Shown: piece by piece, positions 2,577 through 58,885 of the stretch
Layout: every line of letters begins with the position of its first letter
Numbering within the stretch: the stretch's first letter is position 1
From: a virus
Length of the DNA stretch: 64,000 bases
Virus record (IMG/VR): IMGVR_UViG_3300037247_000703
Span: 1 to 64,000 of that record
Direction: 5' to 3' (one strand)
Position numbers and translations under genes: made by a program
The notes under the pieces: model-generated
What the model saw: only the letters and a program-made list of their open reading frames with translations
Databases searched by the model: none
What the model was told of the DNA's origin: nothing

Positions 2577-3530
2577 CTAGGCGACGAGAACGTTGATGCC
2601 CTTGACGACGGCGGTTTCCTCGGCGTACTTCACGTCGAAACGCATCGTCGCGACGATGATCAGCACGCCCTCGGAGACGAGCTTGTCGGTTTCGATGCGG
2701 ATCTGACGCCAGATGCCGACGTTGATGTTCTTGGGATCGACGAGCAAGGTGTTCGTCGAGTCGTTGCCGCCGCCGAGATCCTCGGGGAACAGCGGCACAT
2801 CGATGATCGGGATGCCCGACCAGTTGACCGGCGTGTCTTGCTCCAAGAACTTGTCACCGAGAACCGTGCCGCGGTCGGCGAGGAAGTCGCGGTAGTCGAT
2901 CTCCGAGTCGATCGACGTGAAAAAGCGCATCGCGCGCTTCGTGCGCAAGAACTCGCTCGGCATCGCCTTGAGCATGTTCTTGAACAGCGTCTTGTTCGTG
3001 CGCGTGGTCGAGTGGTCGACCACGTTCGACGTCGCTTGCTTCAGGATGCCGTCGAGCACCGCGAGGAAGGTGTCCGCGCTCGCGGTATCACCTTGGATGA
3101 TGACTTCATCCATGTCGCGCGAGATCGCCTCGCCCATCAGCGTCATGATGGTCTGACGCAGGGTGCCGCCCTCGATGGAGTCTTCCAACACTTCGTTGTT
3201 CAGGCGGATTTCCGCCTTGAACAACTCAGCGTCCAGCTCCGTCTGCGTCAGATCCGGCTTCGCGCGGTCGGTCGCCGCGAGCGCTGTGGCCTCCTGCCCG
3301 GCGCGCAGCACGCGCGAGGCGAAGCGGATCTTGTTGATCTCTTGCTTGTGCGACTTCATCGGCACAACGGTCGCTTGGTTCATGATGACGGATTCGTTGA
3401 TCAGAATCCGCATGAACTTCTTGGCCTGCGCCGGGGCGAGAAGGCCGCCGTCAGTCGTCAGATCCGACAGCGCGAGATCCGCCTTCTGCAAGATGGTCTT
3501 GTTGTCCATGACGTGTGCGAGCTGCGACAT
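2577..3530 (-). CDS. Major capsid protein, HK97 fold
   Basis: A 317-aa protein that forms the icosahedral shell. Features typical of compact HK97-fold capsid proteins: an N-terminal helical arm ([20 protein letters not shown]), an E-loop region around residues 60-100, a long spine-helix segment ([18 protein letters not shown]), then the P-domain and a C-terminal beta segment ending in a hydrophobic strand. No long delta domain is obvious; assembly may instead use the separate scaffold-like protein at 7917-8612. The gene sits between the protease genes and small decoration genes, the normal order. Confidence 0.85.
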
Positions 3531-3548: not shown

Positions 3549-4730
3549 TTAGCGGTCGAAGAATGAACGATGTGTTGGGGTGTTTTTTCGGGTCTGTTCC
3601 CGATTCAGGTCCATCGGCCAAGTCGTATCGTCATCGTCCGACCGCTGGCCCTTTTCTACCGGCAACGCGTTGGAGGTAACGCCCCTGCGCTTGCCCTTCC
3701 TGACACCTTGACGAAGTTTGCGCTCGTGACCCTCGACCTCTTTCGTGAGCTTCGTGACCGTACTGACAAGACTGTCAATCTTGGCCGCCGTCGCTTTGTC
3801 GAGTTTCGCTGTCCGATCGCCGCCGTCGTCGCCCTTCTTCTTCTCGGATTTGCCTGCACCCTCTTTCACTGCCGGGGCAAGCGAGTCTCGCAACGCGAGC
3901 AAAATTTCGACCGCTTCTTTCAACTTGTTAAAGCGGGCCGCTGACATTTTTGCGCCGGCCTTCTTCGTGCCGGTCGGGGCCTTGTCGGCCTTGCTGTATG
4001 ACGTCTTCGCCTTCCGCAAGTCGGCGATCGCCGCATCGGTCTTCTCGATGGCAACCCGCTCGTCGTCGACGTTCTTCATCGCTTCGGCGATGTTGGCGTT
4101 TGCCGCCTTGAGCGACGTCTTGAAATCGTCGTGGCCCGCCTTCGATGCGTCCGTCTTCTCTGCCGCTTCCTCTGCACGCTCGCGCAGTGCGGCCGGAAGC
4201 AACTTGTCGAGCGGGTCATCGGGATCGATCGAAGGCTTGGCGCCGAACTTGAGCTGCGCCTCGACGATGCGCGTGTGCACCACGCGCTTCGAGCTGTCGT
4301 TCTCGTAGTTGTCGGCGAACTGTTTGAACCGGGTGCGTGCGTTGTTGGCGCGGCCAGCCGTGTCGACCGGGAACTTCAGGTTAACCGGATCGGCATACAG
4401 GCTGAGCTTCGTCGGAAAGTTCGCCGGGAACGACAGGTTGCTGTTCGCTTCCAGTACTTCGACGCCGAACTTGCTCGAACGCTCCTGCCGCAGCTCGCGA
4501 AGCTCGTCATTCGTCGCGCCTTCGCGCGGCGCCTGCTTTGCTTCAGCCTTCGCAGTGACGAGATTGCCATCGTCATCCAAGACGATCTCGCCCTCGACCG
4601 TGCCGGACGTGTCACGCTTGACGATCAGAAACGGCTGCAAGTTCGCCGGACGATCCACGAGCGAAACTTCTTCGACCACGATTTCCGTGAGTCGATGAAC
4701 TTGCTCGTCGTCTTGCTTCGTTTTCGTCAT
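3549..4730 (-). CDS. Prohead protease/scaffold-like protein with DUF6582-like region
   Basis: A 393-aa protein. Residues 15-39 carry [20 protein letters not shown], an opening seen in phage XkdF-like prohead proteins. Residues about 85-165 ([18 protein letters not shown], then [20 protein letters not shown]) match my memory of DUF6582, a domain found in such proteins. The rest is a Lys/Ala-rich coiled coil typical of scaffolds, ending with WPMDLN at about 371-376 and a basic tail. The gene lies directly upstream of the capsid gene. No complete catalytic triad is evident, so a scaffold role is as likely as proteolysis. The C-terminal WPMDL is shared with the protein at 7917-8612. Confidence 0.6.
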
Positions 4731-4777: not shown

Positions 4778-7700
4778 CTACTCAGGTCGCCGAATCGCGG
4801 AACCTCCGATACTGAACCCGGTGAAGTCCCCCGCTTTCACGTCCTTCCACAGAGCATCCGATAGCACTCTGACAGCGAGCAGCCATGTACCGGCCTTGAT
4901 GACCCGCTCGCCGACGGAAAAGTCGGCGGGGGCAAGGAAGGATTCGAGGATCCTGACCTGTTTGGCGAGTTCTGTGTGCTGAATCCCGATGTTCTGGAAT
5001 TCGGCCATGAACTTGTGCGCAGCGGTCCGAACCTCGTCAGCCGAGTAGATATCCTTCTGCGCATCGACCGTCTCGGGTTCGAGGACGATCCCGTACACGA
5101 ATCTTTCTTCTTCGGCCTTCGCGATGATGAACTCGCCAACGCGGTAGCTCTTGGCGATCGCCTTCGCGGTTTCCGCTCGCGCGATTTTCCAGATTGAATC
5201 GGCGTCTTGGCCCTCGATCGTGAACACCCCCCGGAGCTTCGCGCCTTCGAAGCGAACCTTCATGCCGTCTTCAGTCTTGTCAACTACGACGGCGCGACCG
5301 CGGTCAGCAATCCAGATCGCCGAATCCCCGCTCGAATCATTCATCGGCTCGCCGCCGATCGATCCGCCGGCCTCGACGCCTCCGTCGAAATCGAGCAAAA
5401 CCTTCGAAGATCGATTGCGCTGAATACCGGCGACAGCGGCCTTGCCGATCGGGCTCGCTTGCAGCGTCCATCCGTCGAGCCCCTCGCCGTGCCGATCAAT
5501 GAACAAATGCCAAACGCTCTTGCCGTCTTTCCAGACCTGTTGCGACAGCGTGAACTGGCGCTGTTGATCGAGCGTGGCTTCTTCGATCGCAACTGACTGC
5601 ACGCCCTTGACGACGAAGTTCGACACGAAGACAAGGTTCGCGGTCGAGCACTTCTGAATCGTGAACGGCCTGCCGAACCGCGAGAAGGCGATGCGCGAAC
5701 CGAGCGAATCGGGCGCGGCGATCAGGATCGGCAGTTCGAGCGCAGCGGATTTCCGAACGAGCGAGTCAGCCGTTTCCTTTCCGTCTTGAAGCCAGCGTTT
5801 CGTCACGGCGGGATCGAGAACGATGACCGAATCGGGAAATTCCTTGGCATCGTCCGCGGTCGGGAACGCATCGTCGATCGACCACATCGCACAGCCGCGC
5901 TTGACGATGATCGCGATCACTTCCGCAAATGACTGCGGTCGCGCGAACTCGGCGTCGGCGTCAGGCTGGTCAGGCGAGATAAACCGCTTCGTCAGGATGC
6001 GCGTCAATTGATCGTTGACGACGGCCACATTCTCGCTAGTAAAAAATCCCGACTCGACGAGCGCATCCCGAACTCCTCGCGCACGATCGCCAGCCTTCCA
6101 GTAGCGATAGGCAGGGGGGACCGCGGTTTCGAGCGAGGCCGGCAGACCCGAACCGCTGGCCGGCATTCGCTTCGCCATCACCGCGCCCCACGTCAATACG
6201 TCGGGCAGTCCCTTCGAGAATTGCTCGATTTGGTCTAGCCGATCTTCGGCTTCGCCCTTCGTCGGGAAACATCCGAAATTGCGGCCGGTCGTCTCAGCAA
6301 TGACGCAGTATTCGCCATCTTCGTTTTGCTCGATGCGCTTCTCGGCTTCTTCGCGCTTCTCGGTAACTTCGAAGCGGTCGCGCATTTTGACGACAAGATC
6401 AGCGATCTCGACATGTGGCCGACTGAGATCGGGCGGGCCGCCCAGAATCTTCACGCCCTTCGCGGCATCCGCGCTGAGCATCTGCGCGATCGCTGCCTCG
6501 GCAGACTTGCGCAAGTCGCCCCCGGCGTGCACGTAGAGATTCCCATCCTGCAACACGATGACGGCCTTCTCGGCATCGAAGCTGCGCAGGCCGGCGAGCG
6601 TATCGCCCTTGGCCGCCACTCGCGCCAGCTCGCTCGCTGGCGGGACTTCCGGGTTGCCCTCCTGCGACGGCTCACCCTGCAACCGCCAGAACTCGCGCGG
6701 CGTGAGCGACGTGAGCACGCGCCCTTCGGGGGTCACGACTCGATGCGTGTGACCACCGTCGAATGCGGTCGTCTCGACCTGCATCTCGTGATCGTGGAAT
6801 CCCTCGATCTCGGTGCGTAGCTCGGTGCCGTCGGGAAGCACGAGCGCATGAACGTGCTCACCGTCCCATCCGATGTGCTCGCTGTCTTCGTCGTGAGAAA
6901 ATATCTTGTGCTCGTGCTCGCCGTCTTCGTTCGTCACAACGAGCGTGCCATCGGGCAACACGAACAGGTGGGTGTGCGCGCCGTCGAACTTCGTGCTGCT
7001 GTTGTCGCGATCAATCGCGTGAACGTGAATGCCCGCCTCGGCGTTGCCGCTCGGGAATCCTTTGACCATCGAGTTCGCGCTAAAATCTTCTTCGAGCGCC
7101 TTGAGCGCCTGTTCGCTGATCTCGTAGTTCGAGATCAGCAGATGCACGAACGGCTTGCCGTCAGACCGGGGCGCCGTGTGCCGACTCTCGATCTTTTTGA
7201 CGTGAAATCCGGTCGTGTCGATCTCGGATTTGGCCGTATAGGTGACAAGGAACTTGCCCTTGATCTCCTTGAGCGCCTCGACGAACTCTTCTTCGTCGAA
7301 CGCGTTTTCGCCGACCATCGCGTCGTGGCCGACGTAAGGCGGATCGAGAAAGAAAAACGCATCTTCAGCGTCGTACTTCTTCACCGTGTCGAGATAACTG
7401 CCGGTCAAAACCTCGACGTCTTTCAGGCGATCGCGGAACTTCTCGATCCGTTTCGTGGATGTAAGCCGCGAGCCTTCCTGCGCCGGGTTAAACCCCGCGC
7501 GCGCCTCGCTGCCGGCCACTCCCCCGAACGCGAATCCCGACACGTACAGAAAACGGTGCAGCCGGTCGACCTTGTCGACCGGCTGCTCGCTTGTTCGCAA
7601 TGACGAGTAGAGATCCTTGCTGCCGATCCATTCCTTTTTTTCGAGCTGCTCGAATTCGTCGTCGGTCAGGGTCTGAATCGCCTTGAATGCGAAGGTGATC

Positions 7701-7897
7701 TCCGGGTCAATGTCGTTGATGACCTCGACCTCGGAGGCATCCTTCGCGAACAAGACTGCCGCGGACCCCGCGAACGGTTCGACGTACACCCTGTGTTCGG
7801 GGATGATCGCCGCGAGCGTTTTCGCAAGACGCTTCTTCCCCGCCGGGGAAGACCAGATCGTTTTACCGATCTGGCCGATGTGGTCGGGGAAGGGCAT
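4778..7897 (-). CDS. Fusion: D12-class adenine methyltransferase + HxH repeats + XkdF-type prohead protease
   Basis: A 1039-aa multidomain protein. Residues 1-265 are a Dam-like N6-adenine methyltransferase: SAM motif VEPFAGSAAVLF (39-50), IDPE at 63-66 and catalytic DPPY (185-188). Residues 288-388 hold six GxHxH units (GIHVH, GAHTH, GEHEH, GEHVH, GFHDH, GGHTH), probably metal-binding. Residues 531-560 (CVIAETTGRNFGCFPTKGEA) match a short block common in phage prohead proteins. Residues about 740-905 weakly resemble the LigD 3'-phosphoesterase fold (FTIQK, then IWIADRGR and LRGVFTIEG). Residues 930-1039 are a peptidase S78_2/XkdF domain (YGIVLEPETVDAQKDIYSA; candidate catalytic H974 in GIQH and S1029 in GFSIGG). 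The usual role would be maturation cleavage of head proteins. Why a methyltransferase is attached is unknown; it may be released by proteolysis. The start ATG lacks a clear ribosome site. Confidence 0.75.
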   Translation of the reverse strand: MPFPDHIGQIGKTIWSSPAGKKRLAKTLAAIIPEHRVYVEPFAGSAAVLFAKDASEVEVINDIDPEITFAFKAIQTLTDDEFEQLEKKEWIGSKDLYSSLRTSEQPVDKVDRLHRFLYVSGFAFGGVAGSEARAGFNPAQEGSRLTSTKRIEKFRDRLKDVEVLTGSYLDTVKKYDAEDAFFFLDPPYVGHDAMVGENAFDEEEFVEALKEIKGKFLVTYTAKSEIDTTGFHVKKIESRHTAPRSDGKPFVHLLISNYEISEQALKALEEDFSANSMVKGFPSGNAEAGIHVHAIDRDNSSTKFDGAHTHLFVLPDGTLVVTNEDGEHEHKIFSHDEDSEHIGWDGEHVHALVLPDGTELRTEIEGFHDHEMQVETTAFDGGHTHRVVTPEGRVLTSLTPREFWRLQGEPSQEGNPEVPPASELARVAAKGDTLAGLRSFDAEKAVIVLQDGNLYVHAGGDLRKSAEAAIAQMLSADAAKGVKILGGPPDLSRPHVEIADLVVKMRDRFEVTEKREEAEKRIEQNEDGEYCVIAETTGRNFGCFPTKGEAEDRLDQIEQFSKGLPDVLTWGAVMAKRMPASGSGLPASLETAVPPAYRYWKAGDRARGVRDALVESGFFTSENVAVVNDQLTRILTKRFISPDQPDADAEFARPQSFAEVIAIIVKRGCAMWSIDDAFPTADDAKEFPDSVIVLDPAVTKRWLQDGKETADSLVRKSAALELPILIAAPDSLGSRIAFSRFGRPFTIQKCSTANLVFVSNFVVKGVQSVAIEEATLDQQRQFTLSQQVWKDGKSVWHLFIDRHGEGLDGWTLQASPIGKAAVAGIQRNRSSKVLLDFDGGVEAGGSIGGEPMNDSSGDSAIWIADRGRAVVVDKTEDGMKVRFEGAKLRGVFTIEGQDADSIWKIARAETAKAIAKSYRVGEFIIAKAEEERFVYGIVLEPETVDAQKDIYSADEVRTAAHKFMAEFQNIGIQHTELAKQVRILESFLAPADFSVGERVIKAGTWLLAVRVLSDALWKDVKAGDFTGFSIGGSAIRRPE

Positions 7898-7916: not shown

Positions 7917-8612
7917 CTAGTGCTGCGTCGAGGCTTCGGGATCCTTGCCCCAATCGTACAGCTCGCGAACTTCGTCGTCGCCGAACGACTTGGCGAGATC
8001 CATCGGCCAGCCCTCGGCCGCGTCAGCGCCAGCCGCCTTCTTCGCGGCAGCGGCCTCTTCTTCGGCCTTCTTTTTGTCGGCGTCTTTCTTTTTGTCGGCG
8101 TCGGCCTTCGCTTTCGCCTTCTCGGCGTCGGTCTGGGCGGCACCCTCGCCCTCGCCTTCGCCTTCGCCCTTGCCTTCTCCTTCGCCGGCACCGGCACCTT
8201 CTCCCTCGCCTTCGCCTTCTCCCTTGCCTTCTCCTTCGCCGGCACCCTCGCCTTCGCCTTCGCCGCCCGCAGCGATTTTGGCGGTCAACTCGGCGACCGT
8301 GGCTTCGAGTCCGGCGACCTTCTTCGCCATGTCGGCCTCGGCCTGCGCGGCTTCGTCGAAGACGGGGATCTCGAACTTGTCCAGCTCCTTCGCGACGAAG
8401 GCGCTGCTCGCGACCGCGATCGACGTTCGCAACGCCGTCAGGCGCGCGATCGCCTTCTCGACCGTGTCGGCCTTCGCCTTCTCGATCTCGCCCGTGGCAT
8501 GCGTTGCGAACTCGTCGGCGGTCATCTCCTTCATGACGAGAGCGGCATCACCCGCATGCCCCTTGAGCACGGTTGCACACGCATCGCTCAGTGACTTGAA
8601 GATTGTTTTCAT
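7917..8612 (-). CDS. Scaffold-like protein with Gly-Glu low-complexity linker and WPMDL tail
   Basis: A 231-aa protein. Residues 1-115 are helical and coiled-coil-prone (KAKADTVEKAIARLTALRT). Residues about 116-160 are an almost pure GEGEGEGAG linker. Then comes an Ala/Lys helix and a C-terminal peptide GWPMDLAKSFGDDE (from 201) with DWGKDPE. Flexible-linker, helix-rich small proteins beside the protease and capsid genes are usually scaffolds or minor internal head proteins. An AGGAG ribosome site precedes the ATG. The shared WPMDL peptide suggests a common docking or cleavage signal. Confidence 0.55.
   Translation of the reverse strand: MKTIFKSLSDACATVLKGHAGDAALVMKEMTADEFATHATGEIEKAKADTVEKAIARLTALRTSIAVASSAFVAKELDKFEIPVFDEAAQAEADMAKKVAGLEATVAELTAKIAAGGEGEGEGAGEGEGKGEGEGEGEGAGAGEGEGKGEGEGEGEGAAQTDAEKAKAKADADKKKDADKKKAEEEAAAAKKAAGADAAEGWPMDLAKSFGDDEVRELYDWGKDPEASTQH
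8143..8266 (-). repeat. Low-complexity tandem repeat inside the scaffold-like gene
   Basis: Imperfect tandem hexamers built on ccttcg/ccctcg (plus-strand view) encode alternating Gly-Glu in the minus-strand protein. Such tracts are prone to replication slippage, so linker length may vary between isolates. Confidence 0.8.
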
Positions 8613-8989: not shown

Positions 8990-10048
8990 CTAAATGTCGG
9001 GTACGACGATTGAGCGACAACCGCCGTGCAGAGGGGGCATCGTAACGCCCGCAGCCTGTAGCTCAACGTCGCTTAGAGTGTTTGAAAAACGGCCTATTTT
9101 GTCGCGCTGGCCTACCGCAGACTCGACCACGGTCGCCAGCCTCTGAGGCTCGCCGCCGGGCGGGCTGATCTGGATCTCCTGCCCTCCTTCAACGTTTCGT
9201 GTGCGCGCGAACGGCTGCACGTTTCGAATATCGAGCGGATCGGGCAGGGCCTCGATCTTGTCGAATGTCTGGATACCGAGATCGACCGAGAAGAATCGAC
9301 CGTGCATCATTCGGCACACGTCCGACGTGACTTCATCAAGCATCGCCTCGAAGATGAAGCGACGAATGTCGGCATCCTTGAACGCCGAGAGCTGACCGAA
9401 CGTGCGTGACCGATTGACGAAGACGCCGGCCGCGACATTCCAATAATTTTTTGATCTGGCGATGCCGTTCGCTCTGAGATTCTTGTCAAGTCTACCGGCG
9501 ATCTGATCTCGGCCTTCGCCGCGAGCGAGCCCGCCGCTCACGATCTGCCGCGCTTGTCGCGAGAAGACTTCCGAGCGCTGCCCGAACTCGTGCGTGATGT
9601 AGTTACCCTGACTGCTGACATTGAAGTCGATCACGCGCTTGTCAAACGCGTTGGTAGCGACCGCGATGTTGAGGTTGTGCCGGGTGCGCGTAGCCTTTCG
9701 TGTTTCACCAGTCAGTCGCGGACTCTCGACTTCAGCAACGCCGATGACGCCGGGCATCACAGCATTCGCGGAATCGCGAATTATCTGCGAACTCTGCTCA
9801 ATGAATCGGCGCCGCTGTTTCTGGGTTAGCCTCGGCCAGTCACGATCGAGATTTTTGATCGCGCGATCGAGTGCGACTCGCTCAGGCTTCGCGGCTCGCT
9901 CAAATGCCGCCGCCAGACGAATCGACAACACGACAAAATCTTTTCGGTTGAGCGGATTGAGCGCCTTGCGAATATCGATCCCGAACACATCGCAGAGGAC
10001 CGCATCGCAGGCAGCAACGCCGCGCGCATATAGCTCAGTCCGTTGCAT
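8990..10048 (-). CDS. Phage Mu F-like / SPP1 gp7-like minor head protein
   Basis: A 352-aa protein. The C-terminal third shows the signature of Mu F/SPP1 gp7 minor head proteins: DEVTSDVCRMMHGRFFSVD followed about 90 residues later by PPLHGGCRSIVVP, a Cys/His pattern thought to bind metal. The N-terminal part is helical. Family members bind the portal and are packaged a few copies per head, with a role in DNA ejection or assembly. It follows the portal gene and overlaps its end by 14 bp, the usual order. Confidence 0.85.
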   Translation of the reverse strand: MQRTELYARGVAACDAVLCDVFGIDIRKALNPLNRKDFVVLSIRLAAAFERAAKPERVALDRAIKNLDRDWPRLTQKQRRRFIEQSSQIIRDSANAVMPGVIGVAEVESPRLTGETRKATRTRHNLNIAVATNAFDKRVIDFNVSSQGNYITHEFGQRSEVFSRQARQIVSGGLARGEGRDQIAGRLDKNLRANGIARSKNYWNVAAGVFVNRSRTFGQLSAFKDADIRRFIFEAMLDEVTSDVCRMMHGRFFSVDLGIQTFDKIEALPDPLDIRNVQPFARTRNVEGGQEIQISPPGGEPQRLATVVESAVGQRDKIGRFSNTLSDVELQAAGVTMPPLHGGCRSIVVPDI

Positions 10049-12083
10049 CGCCGCCGGTCAACTCGCGCTCGGCTTCGGCTTCGGTCGCCTTCTTCAAAAC
10101 CTCACGCAACTTGATCAGCGCGATCGCCTGTCGGTCAAGCTCGTAGCTCGCGAGAACGCGCTCGATGTTCGACTTGATCTGTGGTCGCAATCTGCGGAAA
10201 CGACGAGCGCCGGGGGCATTCGAGAACGGACCGCCGAAGGGGCCACCTTGCGCGGGCGCCCGCGTGCCCGGCCCTCCGGTCGTTAGGTCGGCCATGTCGA
10301 GCAACTCACCGCCGCCCTGTTCGAGCAAATCGAGCATGTCGCCGAACGCCTCGGCCTCTGCCTCCGGCGTGGCATCGGGATCCTCGCCTTCGTCTTCGGT
10401 GACGATCTCGCCGTCTTCGCCCGTCTGGATTCCGGCCACGGTGAGCGGCACCGGTTGCTTCGCCCAATCGGCGGTGATTGTGCGGAACTCGCGATTGAAG
10501 ACTTCCTCAAGGAGCGGACGCATGTCGAGCGCGGTCACCGCGTTGGAGTTCATCAGATCCTTGATCATCTTCGCGACGACTGCCGGATCGCGAGTGACAG
10601 GCGCGTTCGAAACGTATTTCCAGTAACGGATCCCGAACTCATTGAGCAGCAACCGACGATTGATCATGAAGTCGAAATCTTCACGCTCGGGCTGGAAGAC
10701 TTGCATCTCCGCGAACGCGAGGGCAGCGTCAGCGGTTGCGCGGTTGAAATCACGGATATCGCCGCGCAGCATTCGAGGCAACCGGAACGACATGCCAACC
10801 TTGTCGATGTTGCGTTCGTCATAGTTTTGAAACAGCGCGTCGTTGTGCTGCGCTGCGGTCAGCGGCTTCATCTCGATCTTCACGCGGCCCGAATTTTCGC
10901 TCGCCTTGCTCGATACCGTCTCCGCTTCTAACACCATGACCGAGTGAAAGTTCTTGCGGCCCTTGATGTTGTTCTGAATGAAATCCTTGATGCGTTCGAC
11001 CGAGTTGCCCGACAGCTTGCCGCCACTGATCAAAAGTGCCATCGGCGGAACGCCCTTGCCATCGAAGTAGAGAAAGTTCACTTCCTCGGATTGGCGCGAA
11101 CCAATCACCGAGAGCAGATTGCCGATCCATCGCGGCACGCCATAGGCCGATTCGGGATTGTGAATCGGAAAGTAGAGCAACTCGGTCGCGGGACCGTCGC
11201 TTTCATCTTCGAATTCCGCTTTGCCCTCTTCGTTCGTCGGCATGACCTTGCCAGTCTTCTTCGAGATCACGCGCGGGTCGCCGAACTCCTTGAAGAAGAC
11301 TTCCCGATCTTCAAAAACCTGAATGAAGCGGCGGAACCGTCGCTGCACTGCCACGTCTTCGAATGACAGATCGGAAATACGCACGCGCATCTCGACCTCG
11401 ACGGGATCATCGAGCGGCATCAGGCGAATGCTGAATGCGGGCAAATAGTTGAACTGTACGACTTCACCGCCGTCGTTGCGCAGCGCTTCCCATGTCCCCC
11501 AACCGATAACCTCGCGATCTTGCCGTGACCGCTGGCGCAGTTCCGAAAACGAAATGTCGGGGCAACAGAAGTCGAAGAAGTTTTTGAGCCACGCCTTCTC
11601 AAGCTGCATTTGCAGTTTGATTTCTTCTTTCGCTTTGCCGACGTCTTCATCGGTCGGAATCAACTCGCCGACGTCTTCGGACATGGCCTCGCGCGGATCG
11701 ACACCCTTGTCGTGCAGGCTTTCGAGAAACAGCGCGTTCTTGATTCGTTCGTCAGCGTCTTCACTTTCGAGGTTGATGACCGGCTCGAATCTGTGGCCGA
11801 AGCCGTCGATGTTCGTCTGGTACGCGTCAATATTGGGACGCAGGGAGTTCGAAACCCGATAGAGCGCACACAGATCGTCGGGCTCGAACGGCGGAACCAA
11901 TGCGCCATGCGTGGAGAACCTATTGCTGACTCCGGCCTCGATGACGTTCGAGGTAGGGAGATTTCCGCGATCGATAAAGTGCGCCTTGATCAGCGGTGAC
12001 GTATCGAGCATGTCGCGCAGATTGCGCGGCTCGTCGGGATCAGTCTTCACCTGTCGCGTGTCACTCTTTTCTTCGTCGCCCAC
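10035..12083 (-). CDS. Portal protein
   Basis: A 682-aa protein between the terminase and Mu F-like genes, the canonical portal slot. Recognisable portal features: an N-terminal segment (PFEPDDLCALYRVSNSLRP, NIDAYQTNIDGFGH), the wing with EVEMRVRISDL, IHNPESAYGVPRWIGNLLSV before the clip/stem, and a long helical C-terminus with a disordered acidic/Gly-Pro region near 590-650. Twelve copies would form the DNA-entry ring. Length is larger than SPP1 gp6 but common in PBSX-type portals. Confidence 0.85.
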   Translation of the reverse strand: MGDEEKSDTRQVKTDPDEPRNLRDMLDTSPLIKAHFIDRGNLPTSNVIEAGVSNRFSTHGALVPPFEPDDLCALYRVSNSLRPNIDAYQTNIDGFGHRFEPVINLESEDADERIKNALFLESLHDKGVDPREAMSEDVGELIPTDEDVGKAKEEIKLQMQLEKAWLKNFFDFCCPDISFSELRQRSRQDREVIGWGTWEALRNDGGEVVQFNYLPAFSIRLMPLDDPVEVEMRVRISDLSFEDVAVQRRFRRFIQVFEDREVFFKEFGDPRVISKKTGKVMPTNEEGKAEFEDESDGPATELLYFPIHNPESAYGVPRWIGNLLSVIGSRQSEEVNFLYFDGKGVPPMALLISGGKLSGNSVERIKDFIQNNIKGRKNFHSVMVLEAETVSSKASENSGRVKIEMKPLTAAQHNDALFQNYDERNIDKVGMSFRLPRMLRGDIRDFNRATADAALAFAEMQVFQPEREDFDFMINRRLLLNEFGIRYWKYVSNAPVTRDPAVVAKMIKDLMNSNAVTALDMRPLLEEVFNREFRTITADWAKQPVPLTVAGIQTGEDGEIVTEDEGEDPDATPEAEAEAFGDMLDLLEQGGGELLDMADLTTGGPGTRAPAQGGPFGGPFSNAPGARRFRRLRPQIKSNIERVLASYELDRQAIALIKLREVLKKATEAEAERELTGGDATD

Positions 12084-12401: not shown

Positions 12402-14564
12402 TCAATCGATGATGTGGATGCCGATAATCGCACCCTCGCTTCGTAAGGTGCGATCCTTACTGCACGCAAGGGCGCAGGCCCAAAAACGATCAGCGTGACC
12501 CTTATCGGTCGTGTCTGTGCTCGTGAGCTGTGTTCGTCCAGCCGGCGTGATCTTGCGGCGAATCGAATGGATCTGCGACACGAGTTCCCGCTCGCGGGGC
12601 AGCACAATCAGACTCTTCTGTAAGCCGATCTTGAAATCGGTGGCCCACGTTTCTTTCGATGGCCCGGTGAACGTGACGCCCTCGACTTGCGGATAGTCGT
12701 CGGCAAGATTTTCGGTCAAGTGCATGCCGATACCATTTTGATCGATCAGCATTCGACCGATCGGCAACAGGTTCAGCATCTGCCGAAGGCTCGCCTCTTG
12801 CGTTTGAAATTTCACCTTGTCGTAGCGCTTGAGTAGCCGGCAGATGAAGCGACCGTCATCAAGCTCGTCGAAGATCGCGAGTTCGGAAAAGTCTTTCTTG
12901 CGACCGACGTCGAAGCCCGCGTGAAGTCGGCCAATGTGTTTGACCTGCGAGAAGTCGTCAGCAAGTTCGAGCGAATCGTTCGTCGCCGGAAGAATCAGCT
13001 CATAGGGAAAAAACGACATCGCTTCGTCGACGTAGACAACCTCAAACTCCTGCTGAAAGTCATCGAGCGGAAGCGAGGAAAACTGTTCCTTGATGCCCTG
13101 CGTACCGAAGCGCGCAACCCGTTCTTCGGTCGCCATCTTCAACGCATCGCGCGAGGCCGTCACAACGTCGTTGCAGAAGAACGAACACAGCCACCACGGA
13201 ACCTTTTGCCGCCAATAGGATCCGTAGGGCCGAAGCTCTTGGCGGGCGATCTCCCAAAACTGCCCGCGCCGGCCAAGCGGAGACGAGCACACCGTCATCT
13301 GTCCCTTCGCTCGAAGGATCAGCGCGGTCGATCCTTTGTAGACCTCCCTATCGTTGGCGTAGTGAGCAAGCTCGTCGAGGTAAATATCGCCCTTCTTCCC
13401 GCGAGGCGCACGAGACGGATGCGAGATGATTCGACTGACGCGCTTGCTCGACGAGTTGGATCGGAAACCGAGTTCGAGCTTCGAGTCGACGACCTTTTTC
13501 TTCTGAAATTCGAGCGGCAATTCTTCGTGTAGCTGCGCGGCGTAGGCGATCTTTTCTTTCGAGTCAGCGAGGTTGTACGAAACGAAAATCGAGTTGTGGG
13601 TTTCCCGAAGATGTGACCGGGCGATTGCCTCGCATGCGAAGAGAAACGAATAACCAACCTGTCTGCCCTTTTCAACACAGCGATACGGGGCGCGCGTGGC
13701 GAGAAATGCTTGCTGATAGGGTTCGAGCCTCAGCGGCTCGTCATCGAAGCGGGCGATACCCTGGAGAAACCCCGATTCCGTGGCGATCCACTCGCTGAAC
13801 TCTTCCTCGGTGCGTTTAACAACAATGAGCGGCCCTGAGTTGCTTTGTGTTTCCTCTTTTGCTACAATAGCGGCAGACGCACTATCACCATCAGGAGGCA
13901 ACCCATGAGTTTCGCCAATCGGGGGCGACCCCCCATCACTTTGACCGACGTCGAGCAAGCCCGGCTTCTCACTGTCAGCGGAGAGCACCGTGACGGGTTC
14001 CGTGACCACATCATTTTCGCTGTCGCCCTCGGTACTGCCTTGCGCGAATTCGAGATCGCCGCCCTCAACGTCGGCGACGTAGTGACGGGCCAGCTCAATC
14101 GCCGCACTCCAGGCATCAAGCGGCGCGTCACCCTCACCATCTTCAAGCGATGCGCCCAGAAGCCCGCCCCGCAGCAAGTCTTCCTCCCCGATTCGCTCAT
14201 CCACAAGATGCGAACCTTCATCAAGTGGAAGATCAGCAACGGGGAGAACGTCGAGCCCGGCGCCCCGCTGTTCATCAGCCGCAAGGGCAATCGAATCAGT
14301 CCACGCACTCTCCGGTTCATGTTCGCCAACTGGCAGCAGCGCGCCGGCTTCGACCGCCGGTTCACTTTCCACCACCTCCGGCATACCGCCCTGACCAACA
14401 TCTATCGGCGCACTCGGGATATCCGTGTCGTTCAGCGAGCTGCCCGGCACGCCAACATCAACACCACCACAATCTACGCCACCCCCACTGACGAAGATAT
14501 CTTGCGGGCCGTCCGCGACCTGCCCTGTTAGACTCTCGTTGTTCCGCGAGGACGCGGCGGGCAT
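12402..14564 (-). CDS. terL: Terminase large subunit; N-terminal region encoded antisense to a recombinase gene
   Basis: The DNA-packaging ATPase-nuclease. Conserved sequence begins near the codons for EEFSEWIATESGF and includes a Walker A variant (CVEKGRQVGYSF), Walker B-like GDIYLDELAHY, a coupling segment VCSSPLGRRGQF, and nuclease-domain acidic residues (HAGFDVGRKKDFSELAI, LIDQNGIGMH, DKGHADRFWA). The ATG chosen at 14562-14564 has GGGAG five bases upstream. A GTG at 14657 would add 31 residues but lacks a ribosome site. Between the 14564 start and the conserved part lie about 240 codons antisense to the recombinase at 13905-14531, and I see no ATG/GTG start in between that avoids it (only a weak TTG near 13901). 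Either the terminase has an acidic overprinted extension or the recombinase cassette has inserted in frame. Confidence 0.85.
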   Translation of the reverse strand: MPAASSRNNESLTGQVADGPQDIFVSGGGVDCGGVDVGVPGSSLNDTDIPSAPIDVGQGGMPEVVESEPAVEAGALLPVGEHEPESAWTDSIALAADEQRGAGLDVLPVADLPLDEGSHLVDERIGEEDLLRGGLLGASLEDGEGDAPLDAWSAAIELARHYVADVEGGDLEFAQGSTEGDSENDVVTEPVTVLSADSEKPGLLDVGQSDGGSPPIGETHGLPPDGDSASAAIVAKEETQSNSGPLIVVKRTEEEFSEWIATESGFLQGIARFDDEPLRLEPYQQAFLATRAPYRCVEKGRQVGYSFLFACEAIARSHLRETHNSIFVSYNLADSKEKIAYAAQLHEELPLEFQKKKVVDSKLELGFRSNSSSKRVSRIISHPSRAPRGKKGDIYLDELAHYANDREVYKGSTALILRAKGQMTVCSSPLGRRGQFWEIARQELRPYGSYWRQKVPWWLCSFFCNDVVTASRDALKMATEERVARFGTQGIKEQFSSLPLDDFQQEFEVVYVDEAMSFFPYELILPATNDSLELADDFSQVKHIGRLHAGFDVGRKKDFSELAIFDELDDGRFICRLLKRYDKVKFQTQEASLRQMLNLLPIGRMLIDQNGIGMHLTENLADDYPQVEGVTFTGPSKETWATDFKIGLQKSLIVLPRERELVSQIHSIRRKITPAGRTQLTSTDTTDKGHADRFWACALACSKDRTLRSEGAIIGIHIID
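13840..13868 (+). promoter_or_regulatory. Sigma70-like promoter for the tyrosine recombinase
   Basis: TTGCTT (-35), 17-bp spacer, TACAAT (-10), followed about 25 bases later by an AGGAGG ribosome site before the recombinase ATG. It lies inside the terminase reading frame on the opposite strand. Confidence 0.65.
13905..14531 (+). CDS. Tyrosine recombinase, catalytic domain only
   Basis: A 208-aa protein with the full tyrosine recombinase residue set: R47 (GTALREFE), H156-x-x-R159 (HHLRH), H182 and nucleophile Y191 (INTTTIYATP). Xer and phage integrases are usually about 300 aa with an N-terminal core-binding domain; here only about 40 residues precede the catalytic domain, so the arm/core-binding part is missing. 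Start chosen at the ATG preceded by AGGAGGCAACC. It may resolve genome multimers, integrate the phage, or move a cassette. It lies antisense within the terminase gene, and no attachment site was recognised nearby. Confidence 0.85.
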   Translation: MSFANRGRPPITLTDVEQARLLTVSGEHRDGFRDHIIFAVALGTALREFEIAALNVGDVVTGQLNRRTPGIKRRVTLTIFKRCAQKPAPQQVFLPDSLIHKMRTFIKWKISNGENVEPGAPLFISRKGNRISPRTLRFMFANWQQRAGFDRRFTFHHLRHTALTNIYRRTRDIRVVQRAARHANINTTTIYATPTDEDILRAVRDLPC

Positions 14565-14595
14565 TGCTTCTCCCAAAGGAGGCACAACTAGCTTC

Positions 14596-14613
14596 GCCCT
14601 CGCGGGCTCTTTT
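14596..14613 (+). terminator. Weak intrinsic terminator after the recombinase
   Basis: GCCC-TCGC-GGGC hairpin followed by TCTTTTT, 65 bp after the recombinase stop. The stem is only 4 bp, so this is tentative. Confidence 0.3.
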
Positions 14614-14673
14614 TCGAGCTGCTCAGCGAGCAGCGCTTGAAACGAGAGCTTCCCCACGAATTGAGTCTACTGC

Positions 14674-56497: not shown

Positions 56498-56715
56498 GAC
56501 CTGACGATCCTCCATTCTTCCTCTTCGCCGTGTTGCTCAAATTGGAAGTCGATGTCCATGCACACGATGAACTTTTCGTTGAGCTGCCGGATGCCGTACC
56601 ACTCGGGCGCATCGCCGCGCTGTGTGAGCGCCATGAGTAGCTTCACTTGATCGATGTCGAGCTTCCGTTGCGTGAACGTCGTGCCCGAGATGAAGCCCAT
56701 GATCGGATTAGCCAT
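56494..56715 (-). CDS. Small protein, unknown
   Basis: A 73-aa protein: FISGTTFTQRKLDIDQVKLL, EWYGIRQLNEKFIVCMDIDF. Strand-helix. Its ATG shares its first base with the methyltransferase stop. Confidence 0.5.
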   Translation of the reverse strand: MANPIMGFISGTTFTQRKLDIDQVKLLMALTQRGDAPEWYGIRQLNEKFIVCMDIDFQFEQHGEEEEWRIVRS

Positions 56716-58514
56716 CAACTCTCTCCCTGTTCGAGTTCGTGAAGACCGTGCGGCAAGTCCGCATCGGGTTCGGCAATCCTCTGCGCATAGATCGACATTC
56801 CAATCGCGCGATCCCATGCGTCGAGTGCGCGTTCTGCGTCAGTCAGCTCTGGTTCATCTTCCGTGATTGTCTGTTCGGAATCGGCCGCCGCCTGATCGAG
56901 CAGCGCTTCCGCGCTGTCGAGAAATTGTGACTCGGCCGCCGCTTGTAATCGCTCGGTCATGTCGAGCTGTTCGAAGCGAGTCTTCTCGTCGACGCCGGCT
57001 GCCTTGAGTAACGGGGCTTGTTCGGCCTCCCACTCTTCCCAGAACTTGATCCGAGCACGCGCGAGCGCGGCGTGCTTCTCGCCCAGCTCGAACCCGAGGA
57101 AGTCGAAGCCCTCGATGACGGCCGCGCAACCGGTCGGCCCCGACCCGCAGAACGGATCGAGCACGACGCCGCCCGGGGGTGTGATGATGCGGACGAGCCA
57201 CGACATGAGCGCGACCGACTTGACCGTCGGATGCGTGTTCTTGGCGCCCCCTGTGCGCCCTGCGCCCGCCCGCGGATTCCCGAGCCCCTTGCTCCCATCC
57301 TTGCGATCGGTCGCCTGACCGGCTGTGGACGCCTCGAACGCGTCGAGGCCCGCGTCACGCTCAGCCCGGCTGGGCTTGGCCTCGTAGCGGAAGGTCGCGA
57401 AGAACCGCGAGGCCCCGCCTATGTCGCCATAGGTGGCTAGACTGTCGGTCAGGTTTGGCTTCCGCGAACCGTGGGCGCGTGTCGATATGGCGGTGCGCCC
57501 GCTGTCGGCGTTGCTCCGGGCAATGCCGCCGCCCGCTAAGCCGCTTTGACGGTCTAGCTCAGCGACGGGGCACCCGACAGCGCAGTTCCACAGCACGACG
57601 CTCTCGTCGCCATACAGCGGCCCTGACGGCTTGTTGTCGCCGGCCTCGGCTCCGGTGTCCACAAAGCCCGCTGGCCGGCTCCCCTGACTACCCTGACGCC
57701 GGTCGCCGCGGATATGCCCCGTGCCAACAGGCTCGCAGTCCGGCCCGTGCGACAGGATCAGGTTCGCCGGCCAGCGGCCACCGTTCTTGCCGGCCACGGC
57801 TGAGCGGTTCGTGCTCGCCCAGCCGCTCGCCGACATCGTTGACTTGCCGAGTTGTCGTTCGAGCTTCTCGTCGGTGCCGATGCGACAGGCATCAATATTG
57901 AGCGCGCCCGTGCCGTACAGCAACACGTTGCGCGCGACAGTCTTCTCGATCGGTTTGCGCGCGAGAATCCAATGCTCGGTAGCTGGCTTGAGTGCAGTTC
58001 CCCAACCTTCCCACTGCTTGGCGGATTCTGTGGCAGGAGCGGTTATGTCCATCGATCCACCCTTGTCGGGACCGCTGCCGTAAACAAAGTTAGGTCCGTA
58101 GCTTTCCAGCTTCGAAACACTGCCGACGACATCACGCTCAGCCCCCGCCGCCCTGTCGATCGCCTTGCTCACGTCGAGCGACTTTGGAAAGCCGTTGCCG
58201 AAATGGTGATGCACGATGTCGCGGATCTCGAACTGCGCATCTTCGATCGCAAACGCGGTCCAATGAGAGGTACGAGGCAGAGCCCACACGAGCAGGTGCC
58301 CACCCGGCTTGAGTACGCGATAGCACTGCGACATGATCGTGAACAGCCAATCGATCCAGACGTCGCGCCCGCCTTTGTTCGAATCCCACTTTTTCCCCAT
58401 GAACGAAATGCCAGCGGGCGGATCGGTCACGATCGAGTCGATGCACTCGTCAGGCAACGCTGGCAAACCGAAACGTCGATCCATGTTCGGCGCGGTGATC
58501 ACGTTCCACGTCAT
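56715..58514 (-). CDS. DNA methyltransferase, DPPA type
   Basis: A 599-aa protein. The catalytic motif reads SIVTDPPAGISFMGKKWDS, so the usual aromatic residue of DPP(Y/F/W) is Ala; the SAM motif near the C-terminus is VVLDPFCGSGPTGCAAVIEG. A long insertion of about 250 residues lies between them. Motif order (catalytic before SAM) is that of the beta class (N4-cytosine or N6-adenine). A DPPA variant is known to me from other phage methylases. Probably modifies phage DNA against host restriction. Start ATG 58514 gives the shortest conserved N-terminus. Confidence 0.8.
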   Translation of the reverse strand: MTWNVITAPNMDRRFGLPALPDECIDSIVTDPPAGISFMGKKWDSNKGGRDVWIDWLFTIMSQCYRVLKPGGHLLVWALPRTSHWTAFAIEDAQFEIRDIVHHHFGNGFPKSLDVSKAIDRAAGAERDVVGSVSKLESYGPNFVYGSGPDKGGSMDITAPATESAKQWEGWGTALKPATEHWILARKPIEKTVARNVLLYGTGALNIDACRIGTDEKLERQLGKSTMSASGWASTNRSAVAGKNGGRWPANLILSHGPDCEPVGTGHIRGDRRQGSQGSRPAGFVDTGAEAGDNKPSGPLYGDESVVLWNCAVGCPVAELDRQSGLAGGGIARSNADSGRTAISTRAHGSRKPNLTDSLATYGDIGGASRFFATFRYEAKPSRAERDAGLDAFEASTAGQATDRKDGSKGLGNPRAGAGRTGGAKNTHPTVKSVALMSWLVRIITPPGGVVLDPFCGSGPTGCAAVIEGFDFLGFELGEKHAALARARIKFWEEWEAEQAPLLKAAGVDEKTRFEQLDMTERLQAAAESQFLDSAEALLDQAAADSEQTITEDEPELTDAERALDAWDRAIGMSIYAQRIAEPDADLPHGLHELEQGES

Positions 58515-58885
58515 TCGGCTAGGCCCCCATTGATGACCGACAGCTCTGCCCACGAGTCGAGCACGCGATACTCGATCGGGATGCCGCGCCCCTCGGCGTG
58601 TGCGATCCCGTACTGCATGCCCTTCGTGATTCCGAGGTTCGTATAGACGACCGTGGCATCGGCGACATCGCGCCACAGGAAGCCCGCCTGAATGCCTCGC
58701 TCGCGCTCGACCGGGATGCGATCATCGAGCACGCCCGGCTGAGTGTAGAGACCGTGCGAGGCGTAGGGGGCTTCGTCGTGGTTGACGATAGCATCGCGCA
58801 TGCACGCTCGAAGGAAGCGCAGGTTGCGCTCGACGATCTGATCGTCGTCGCTACCGTAAGGCGACTCGATGACGACGCGCCTCAT
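58511..58885 (-). CDS. DUF7768-like nucleoside 2-deoxyribosyltransferase-fold protein
   Basis: A 124-aa protein: VVIESPYGSDDDQIVERNLR (strand plus N-R pair), YASHGLYTQPGVLDDRIPVE (H and R patch), and DATVVYTNLGITKGMQYGIA. These three blocks match the deoxyribosyltransferase-like fold (DUF7768). May act on nucleosides or be a non-catalytic relative. Overlaps both neighbours by 4 bp. Confidence 0.65.
   Translation of the reverse strand: MRRVVIESPYGSDDDQIVERNLRFLRACMRDAIVNHDEAPYASHGLYTQPGVLDDRIPVERERGIQAGFLWRDVADATVVYTNLGITKGMQYGIAHAEGRGIPIEYRVLDSWAELSVINGGLAE

Follow-up and report, generated by a model that had tools for sequence, protein, structure and literature searches.

A predicted adenine methyltransferase in one reading frame with an XkdF head maturation protease: a possible carrier of enzymes in phage heads

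Introduction

Polyvalent proteins, found in phages and conjugative elements, unite several unrelated enzyme domains in the polypeptide of a single late gene and have been predicted to be packaged and injected (Iyer et al. 2017, PMC5512222). Where they include an assemblin-like peptidase, it invariably lies at the C-terminus, with a possible role in protein processing during assembly; such peptidases are "rather limited in their distribution" (PMC5512222). Phage P1 carries its Dar proteins, one of which is the methyltransferase-helicase DarB, inside the head and ejects them along with the DNA. MuF-effector fusions and Alt of phage T4 are further cases of a head protein that acts as enzyme carrier.

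Here, we relate these systems to a gene in 64,000 nucleotides of viral DNA (the window), part of a 100,330-base IMG/VR virus record (IMGVR_UViG_3300037247_000703). A preliminary description had proposed that one frame of this window joins an intact adenine methyltransferase, six HxH repeats, a LigD-like segment and an XkdF protease, an architecture that open reading frame, Pfam and Foldseek analyses confirm. As in polyvalent proteins, at least two unrelated enzyme domains share a polypeptide, which is encoded among the virion genes of a portal-terminase phage. XkdF fusions and the proteins of PMC5512222 also have inorganic pyrophosphatase (InPase), 2H and Pol-beta NTase domains in common. In XkdF fusions, however, it is the head protease that stays constant, and the main text of PMC5512222 is without XkdF, D12, LigD, DNA ligase or Myxococcota. 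DarB resembles the cargo proposed here in being a head-delivered methyltransferase, and protects DNA in cis; it is nevertheless a separate methyltransferase-SWI2/SNF2 protein of another methyltransferase class, unfused to a maturation protease. In MuF-effector fusions and T4 Alt, MuF or a free internal protein takes the place of the protease as carrier. The XkdF proteins of the isolated phages PaP1, rV5, Lactococcus 98201 and Alteromonas PT11-V22 have the same domain in the same place, between portal and scaffold/capsid, but, at 156-190 aa on their own or 349 aa with a scaffold part, carry no cargo. Our literature search found no paper on an XkdF-methyltransferase fusion.

Domain architecture of the fusion

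The fusion is a single frame that opens with ATG and has no internal stops. Its parts are as follows.

4778-7897, minus strand: complete fusion gene, 1039 aa, stop codon counted in the coordinates
7112-7870, minus strand: predicted D12 class N6-adenine DNA methyltransferase, residues 10-262
6743-7033, minus strand: six GxHxH units, 15-20 residues apart, residues 289-385
6362-6601, minus strand: possible nucleotidyltransferase-like remnant, residues 433-512
6209-6343, minus strand: small inserted element, residues 519-563
5978-6205, minus strand: helical domain with the pattern MPPxGxSxLPxSLE..VP..RYW, residues 565-640
5615-5923, minus strand: putative second D12 methyltransferase, decayed C-terminal half, residues ~659-761
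5174-5575, minus strand: modelled LigD 3'-phosphoesterase fold, catalytic residues lost, residues 775-908
4778-5128, minus strand: predicted XkdF (S78_2) head maturation protease, residues 924-1039

Residues 10-262 are predicted to be an intact D12 adenine methyltransferase. Pfam MethyltransfD12 (PF02086) matches residues 20-203 at 2.5e-24, with 86.9 bits far over the curated cut-off of 22, and the SAM-binding and DPPY motifs are both there (PFAGSA, residues 41-46; DPPY, residues 185-188), as first reported. The nearest PDB entries by sequence are Dam, DpnM and Mcbe1. At the other end, residues 924-1039 are predicted to form a complete XkdF maturation protease: Peptidase_S78_2/XkdF (PF14550) matches residues 924-1034 (8.6e-30; 103.8 bits, far over its curated cut-off of 24) across positions 5-122 of the 126 in the model, and the catalytic pair is kept, with H974 in GIQH and S1029 in GFSIGG.

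Between these enzymes, GxHxH occurs exactly six times (at 289, 306, 326, 346, 366 and 381), the number originally counted. None of 2000 shuffles of the fusion protein contained six, the maximum being two, and all 12 histidines of the units are invariant in four relatives. The predicted model of this region is beta-rich, at low confidence; it is a candidate for a possible metal-binding domain.

The model of residues 270-780 is of low confidence (pLDDT 58.5) and was never used by itself, the sole claim made within it being a methyltransferase remnant, on profile evidence. Residues ~659-761 match the C-terminal half of the relatives' second methyltransferase (hhalign 97.8%, 1.1e-12) and none of four control profiles. 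The DPPY position here reads DPAV; a fold search with the low-confidence model placed Dam structures on top at 5.5e-3, which is not significant alone. By its profile we read this stretch, overlooked in the preliminary description, as a decayed second methyltransferase that has lost its active site.

The LigD-like segment had been placed at residues 740-905. Modelled together with ten relatives, residues 775-908 reach an AlphaFold pLDDT of 93.8, and the only PDB folds returned by Foldseek at E <= 0.001 are the LigD phosphoesterases 3p4h (1.1e-5, TM 0.69/0.78) and 3p43 (2.5e-5), which the sequence profile likewise ranks first. On this model the LigD phosphoesterase fold stands, over a span of ~775-908, and the active site does not: other residues stand in place of the catalytic HxDxR and the metal-binding His, both in the window and in the profile, so the domain is not expected to act as a phosphoesterase. 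Together with the second methyltransferase, it would be at most a spacer or binding domain.

In the rest of the middle, residues 433-512 resemble by eye a segment of another XkdF fusion, L007, for which the NTP_transf_2 match is 0.055, and may possibly be a remnant of a nucleotidyltransferase-like domain. The element at residues 519-563 (phrog_2859, 4.9e-7) has a counterpart in L065 and none in L001. The helical domain at 565-640 recurs in many XkdF fusions; it has no Pfam or PHROG match, and neither it nor residues 425-515 matched any profile tried.

A separate internal start for the protease was sought in the window and not found: no start in frame between residue 578 and the protease is preceded by a Shine-Dalgarno match of at least 4, and most relatives have no such start within 40 codons upstream of the protease. 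As no plausible ribosome site precedes it, the protease is apparently translated only within the fusion.

Genomic context

The surrounding head genes of the window are these.

12402-14657, minus strand: terminase large subunit, first ~270 codons doubtful (Pfam and PHROG)
10035-12083, minus strand: portal protein (phrog_12, 4.3e-28)
8990-10048, minus strand: MuF-like minor head protein (Pfam and PHROG)
7917-8612, minus strand: upstream head gene, GE-rich, with C-terminal WPMDLA (from the sequence)
3549-4730, minus strand: scaffold-like protein, next gene after the fusion (scaffold part of phrog_3017, 8.6e-9)
2577-3530, minus strand: major capsid protein (Pfam Phage_capsid, 3.5e-13; phrog_1623, 6.6e-96)

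The block runs terminase, portal, MuF-like protein, two small genes, fusion, scaffold and capsid, and the fusion thus sits between the portal and the scaffold/capsid genes. The order terminase, portal, MuF, fusion, scaffold, capsid is common to the window and its relatives, and in most Myxococcota loci the stop of the fusion and the start of the scaffold gene overlap. That the next gene is a scaffold had also gone unremarked; phrog_3017 is a protease-plus-scaffold PHROG, of which it matches the scaffold part, and its product has the motif SLVDRPAN at the start and WPMDLN close to the end. Elsewhere, the window encodes a second, free DNA methyltransferase gene (56715-58676, minus strand; phrog_67, 3e-52), and the fused copy therefore probably has another role.

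Several smaller observations concern this block. A tyrosine recombinase (13845-14531, plus strand; phrog_216, 4.2e-32) lies antisense to the first ~270 codons of the frame at 12402-14657, so that the terminase itself probably begins near 13,840. WPMDL[NA] stands at the C-terminus of both genes flanking the fusion (3620 and 8009, minus strand), with similar cases in L001, L012 and L050, and is perhaps a shared capsid-binding signal. The scaffold gene opens with a conserved segment (from 4730 downwards), of which a diverged form starts the PaP1 scaffold; in Lactococcus 98201 a like segment precedes the protease within one protein. The scaffold also has a weak DUF6582 match, and a stretch of similar look, LPDDAFL...LRHFP...HLRNAIARIPQ, recurs in the linkers of L005, L012, L031, L131 and L135.

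Conservation and variable cargo

The same architecture is present full-length, at 46% identity and in the same gene order, in L001, another IMG/VR contig. A scan of genome contigs gave 55 loci, mostly of Myxococcota, and relatives in total come from more than 80 loci on separate contigs and genomes, mostly of soil myxobacteria. In a set of 45 aligned proteins, chosen partly by their methyltransferase pattern, 42 reach the protease; all 42 have methyltransferase and protease in one frame and keep the protease His and Ser, and the methyltransferase motifs are kept in 44-45 of the 45. The linker between the two enzymes is shortest in Archangium-like loci, at 26 aa, and longest in L007, at 1324 aa; one or two additional methyltransferases are present in some members. 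Median dN/dS is ~0.27-0.38 for the methyltransferases and 0.32 for the protease, values which, although many pairs approach saturation, suggest that the fused methyltransferases are kept by selection. Mx8 Mox, named from a review, is a candidate relative. Among 50,697 isolated-phage records scanned, none covers at least 80% of either fusion query.

A repeat search that used only the protease as query found 218 relatives on virus contigs, of which 80 were kept, representing 76 distinct frames; 44 of these carry one to three methyltransferases. In the 195 genomes grouped with an M. xanthus genome, the protease occurs in 31, nearly always in frames of at least 430 aa, which speaks against a methyltransferase that is always a separate gene. 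The exception is a complete 186-aa XkdF frame; the tail of a second methyltransferase is kept upstream of it, and so this frame is a remnant.

The N-terminal cargo differs between XkdF frames. Six contain an ATP-dependent DNA ligase (L007, L083, L090, L100, L105 and L112), two an InPase, placed before the protease in L134 and behind it in L097, and one a 2H phosphoesterase (L140, 6e-10); phosphoesterase-fold domains are also among the cargo. In L126, a Tad3 Thoeris inhibitor (1.8e-8) stands beside three to four methyltransferases, with XkdF at the end. Mapped onto the protease tree, the cargo label requires 21 changes, against a possible minimum of 6; the tree has many unresolved forks, and its starred branches force fewer changes.

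In the linker of L008, a QPRDEGGRFSETGG motif is followed by a segment resembling an ADP-ribosyltransferase; an assignment as such a domain was dropped, the Pfam DRAT match being just 0.043. A different XkdF protein (L154:3662-4957, minus strand) has a KHPRADDGKF motif similar to that of L008, and its N-terminal part looks by eye like a uracil-DNA glycosylase.

Discussion

The proposal of an enzyme tethered to the maturation protease, and perhaps packaged with it, is still the best explanation of these sequence features, strengthened by the ligase, Tad3, 2H phosphoesterase and InPase found as other cargo. The coupling of capsid maturation to DNA modification that was first suggested is hypothetical. 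A C-terminal virion-assembly protease on multi-domain phage proteins has already been proposed (PMC5512222), an idea that the XkdF family fits, and XkdF fusions are best explained as a branch of the polyvalent proteins built on a prohead protease. We lean towards reading the fusion as a head-gene polyprotein whose C-terminal XkdF would load, process and free the N-terminal enzymes for delivery with the DNA. Inside the procapsid, the protease would co-assemble with the scaffold, which the next gene encodes, and whatever is fused N-terminally would ride in with it. On maturation, it would cut the scaffold and probably also itself free, and the N-terminal enzymes would stay in the filled head and exit with the DNA. 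For the window phage, the working cargo would be one D12 adenine methyltransferase and the HxH domain; once injected, the methyltransferase would methylate the incoming genome ahead of restriction enzymes. A cleavage motif seen by eye at domain junctions and at the capsid N-terminus, [ILV]xK|[AG], was not accepted, because its positions belong to conserved starts of methyltransferase and protease domains and occur also in the Lactococcus 98201 protease.

Much of this evidence bears equally on a role in the producing cell, in which a procapsid-tethered methyltransferase would mark DNA before or during packaging and be removed or destroyed at maturation, undelivered. Such methylation would leave the same sequence signs, including the kept methyltransferase active-site motifs, and the fusion adjoins packaging genes. 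We nevertheless consider it rather unlikely, given that it leaves the ligase, Tad3, 2H and pyrophosphatase cargo unexplained, enzymes whose likely use is on entry, and that a purely in-cell role is less needed in a phage that already encodes a free methyltransferase. Still less probable, in our judgement, is a mainly structural role, in which the N-terminal domains would bind DNA or fill space, aiding assembly or head size, with any activity incidental. The window's second methyltransferase and phosphoesterase domain, both without active sites, and the wide range of linker lengths would suit it, but the catalytic motifs of the first methyltransferase are kept in nearly all members, and its dN/dS is like that of the protease. 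As for an artefact, in which an assembly join, a frameshift or a missed start masks two normal genes, we give it almost no credence: every one of the more than 80 loci is a single frame, and a frameshift or join is ruled out by the full-length L001 homologue together with the single-frame complete fusions.

If delivery by the head-gene polyprotein holds true, the maturation protease also serves to carry cargo, and its N-terminal partner marks what the phage injects. This would provide a search rule for anti-defence proteins, with one case already containing a Tad3-like domain, as well as a natural design for putting enzymes into capsids. More tentatively, and with slightly less than even confidence, we suggest that XkdF may be a general loading tag, on which phages of Myxococcota and of many uncultured hosts would mount interchangeable anti-defence and DNA-repair enzymes for procapsid entry, self-cleavage and delivery. 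In that event, the N-termini of XkdF frames lacking an assigned domain would constitute a list of anti-defence candidates.

The fusions also offer an explanation for XkdF proteases that are mislabelled in databases. PaP1 gp048 (L060:3896-4366), Lactococcus 98201 gp34 (L061:2857-3906) and PT11-V22 ORF3 (L063:2875-3378) are labelled "DNA methyltransferase", and Pfam finds only XkdF in them and no methyltransferase domain. Such labels on XkdF-only proteins were probably copied from fused proteins. The same label is borne by rV5 gp063 (L062:2842-3414) and phrog_1530, the Pfam scan having covered the other three proteins.
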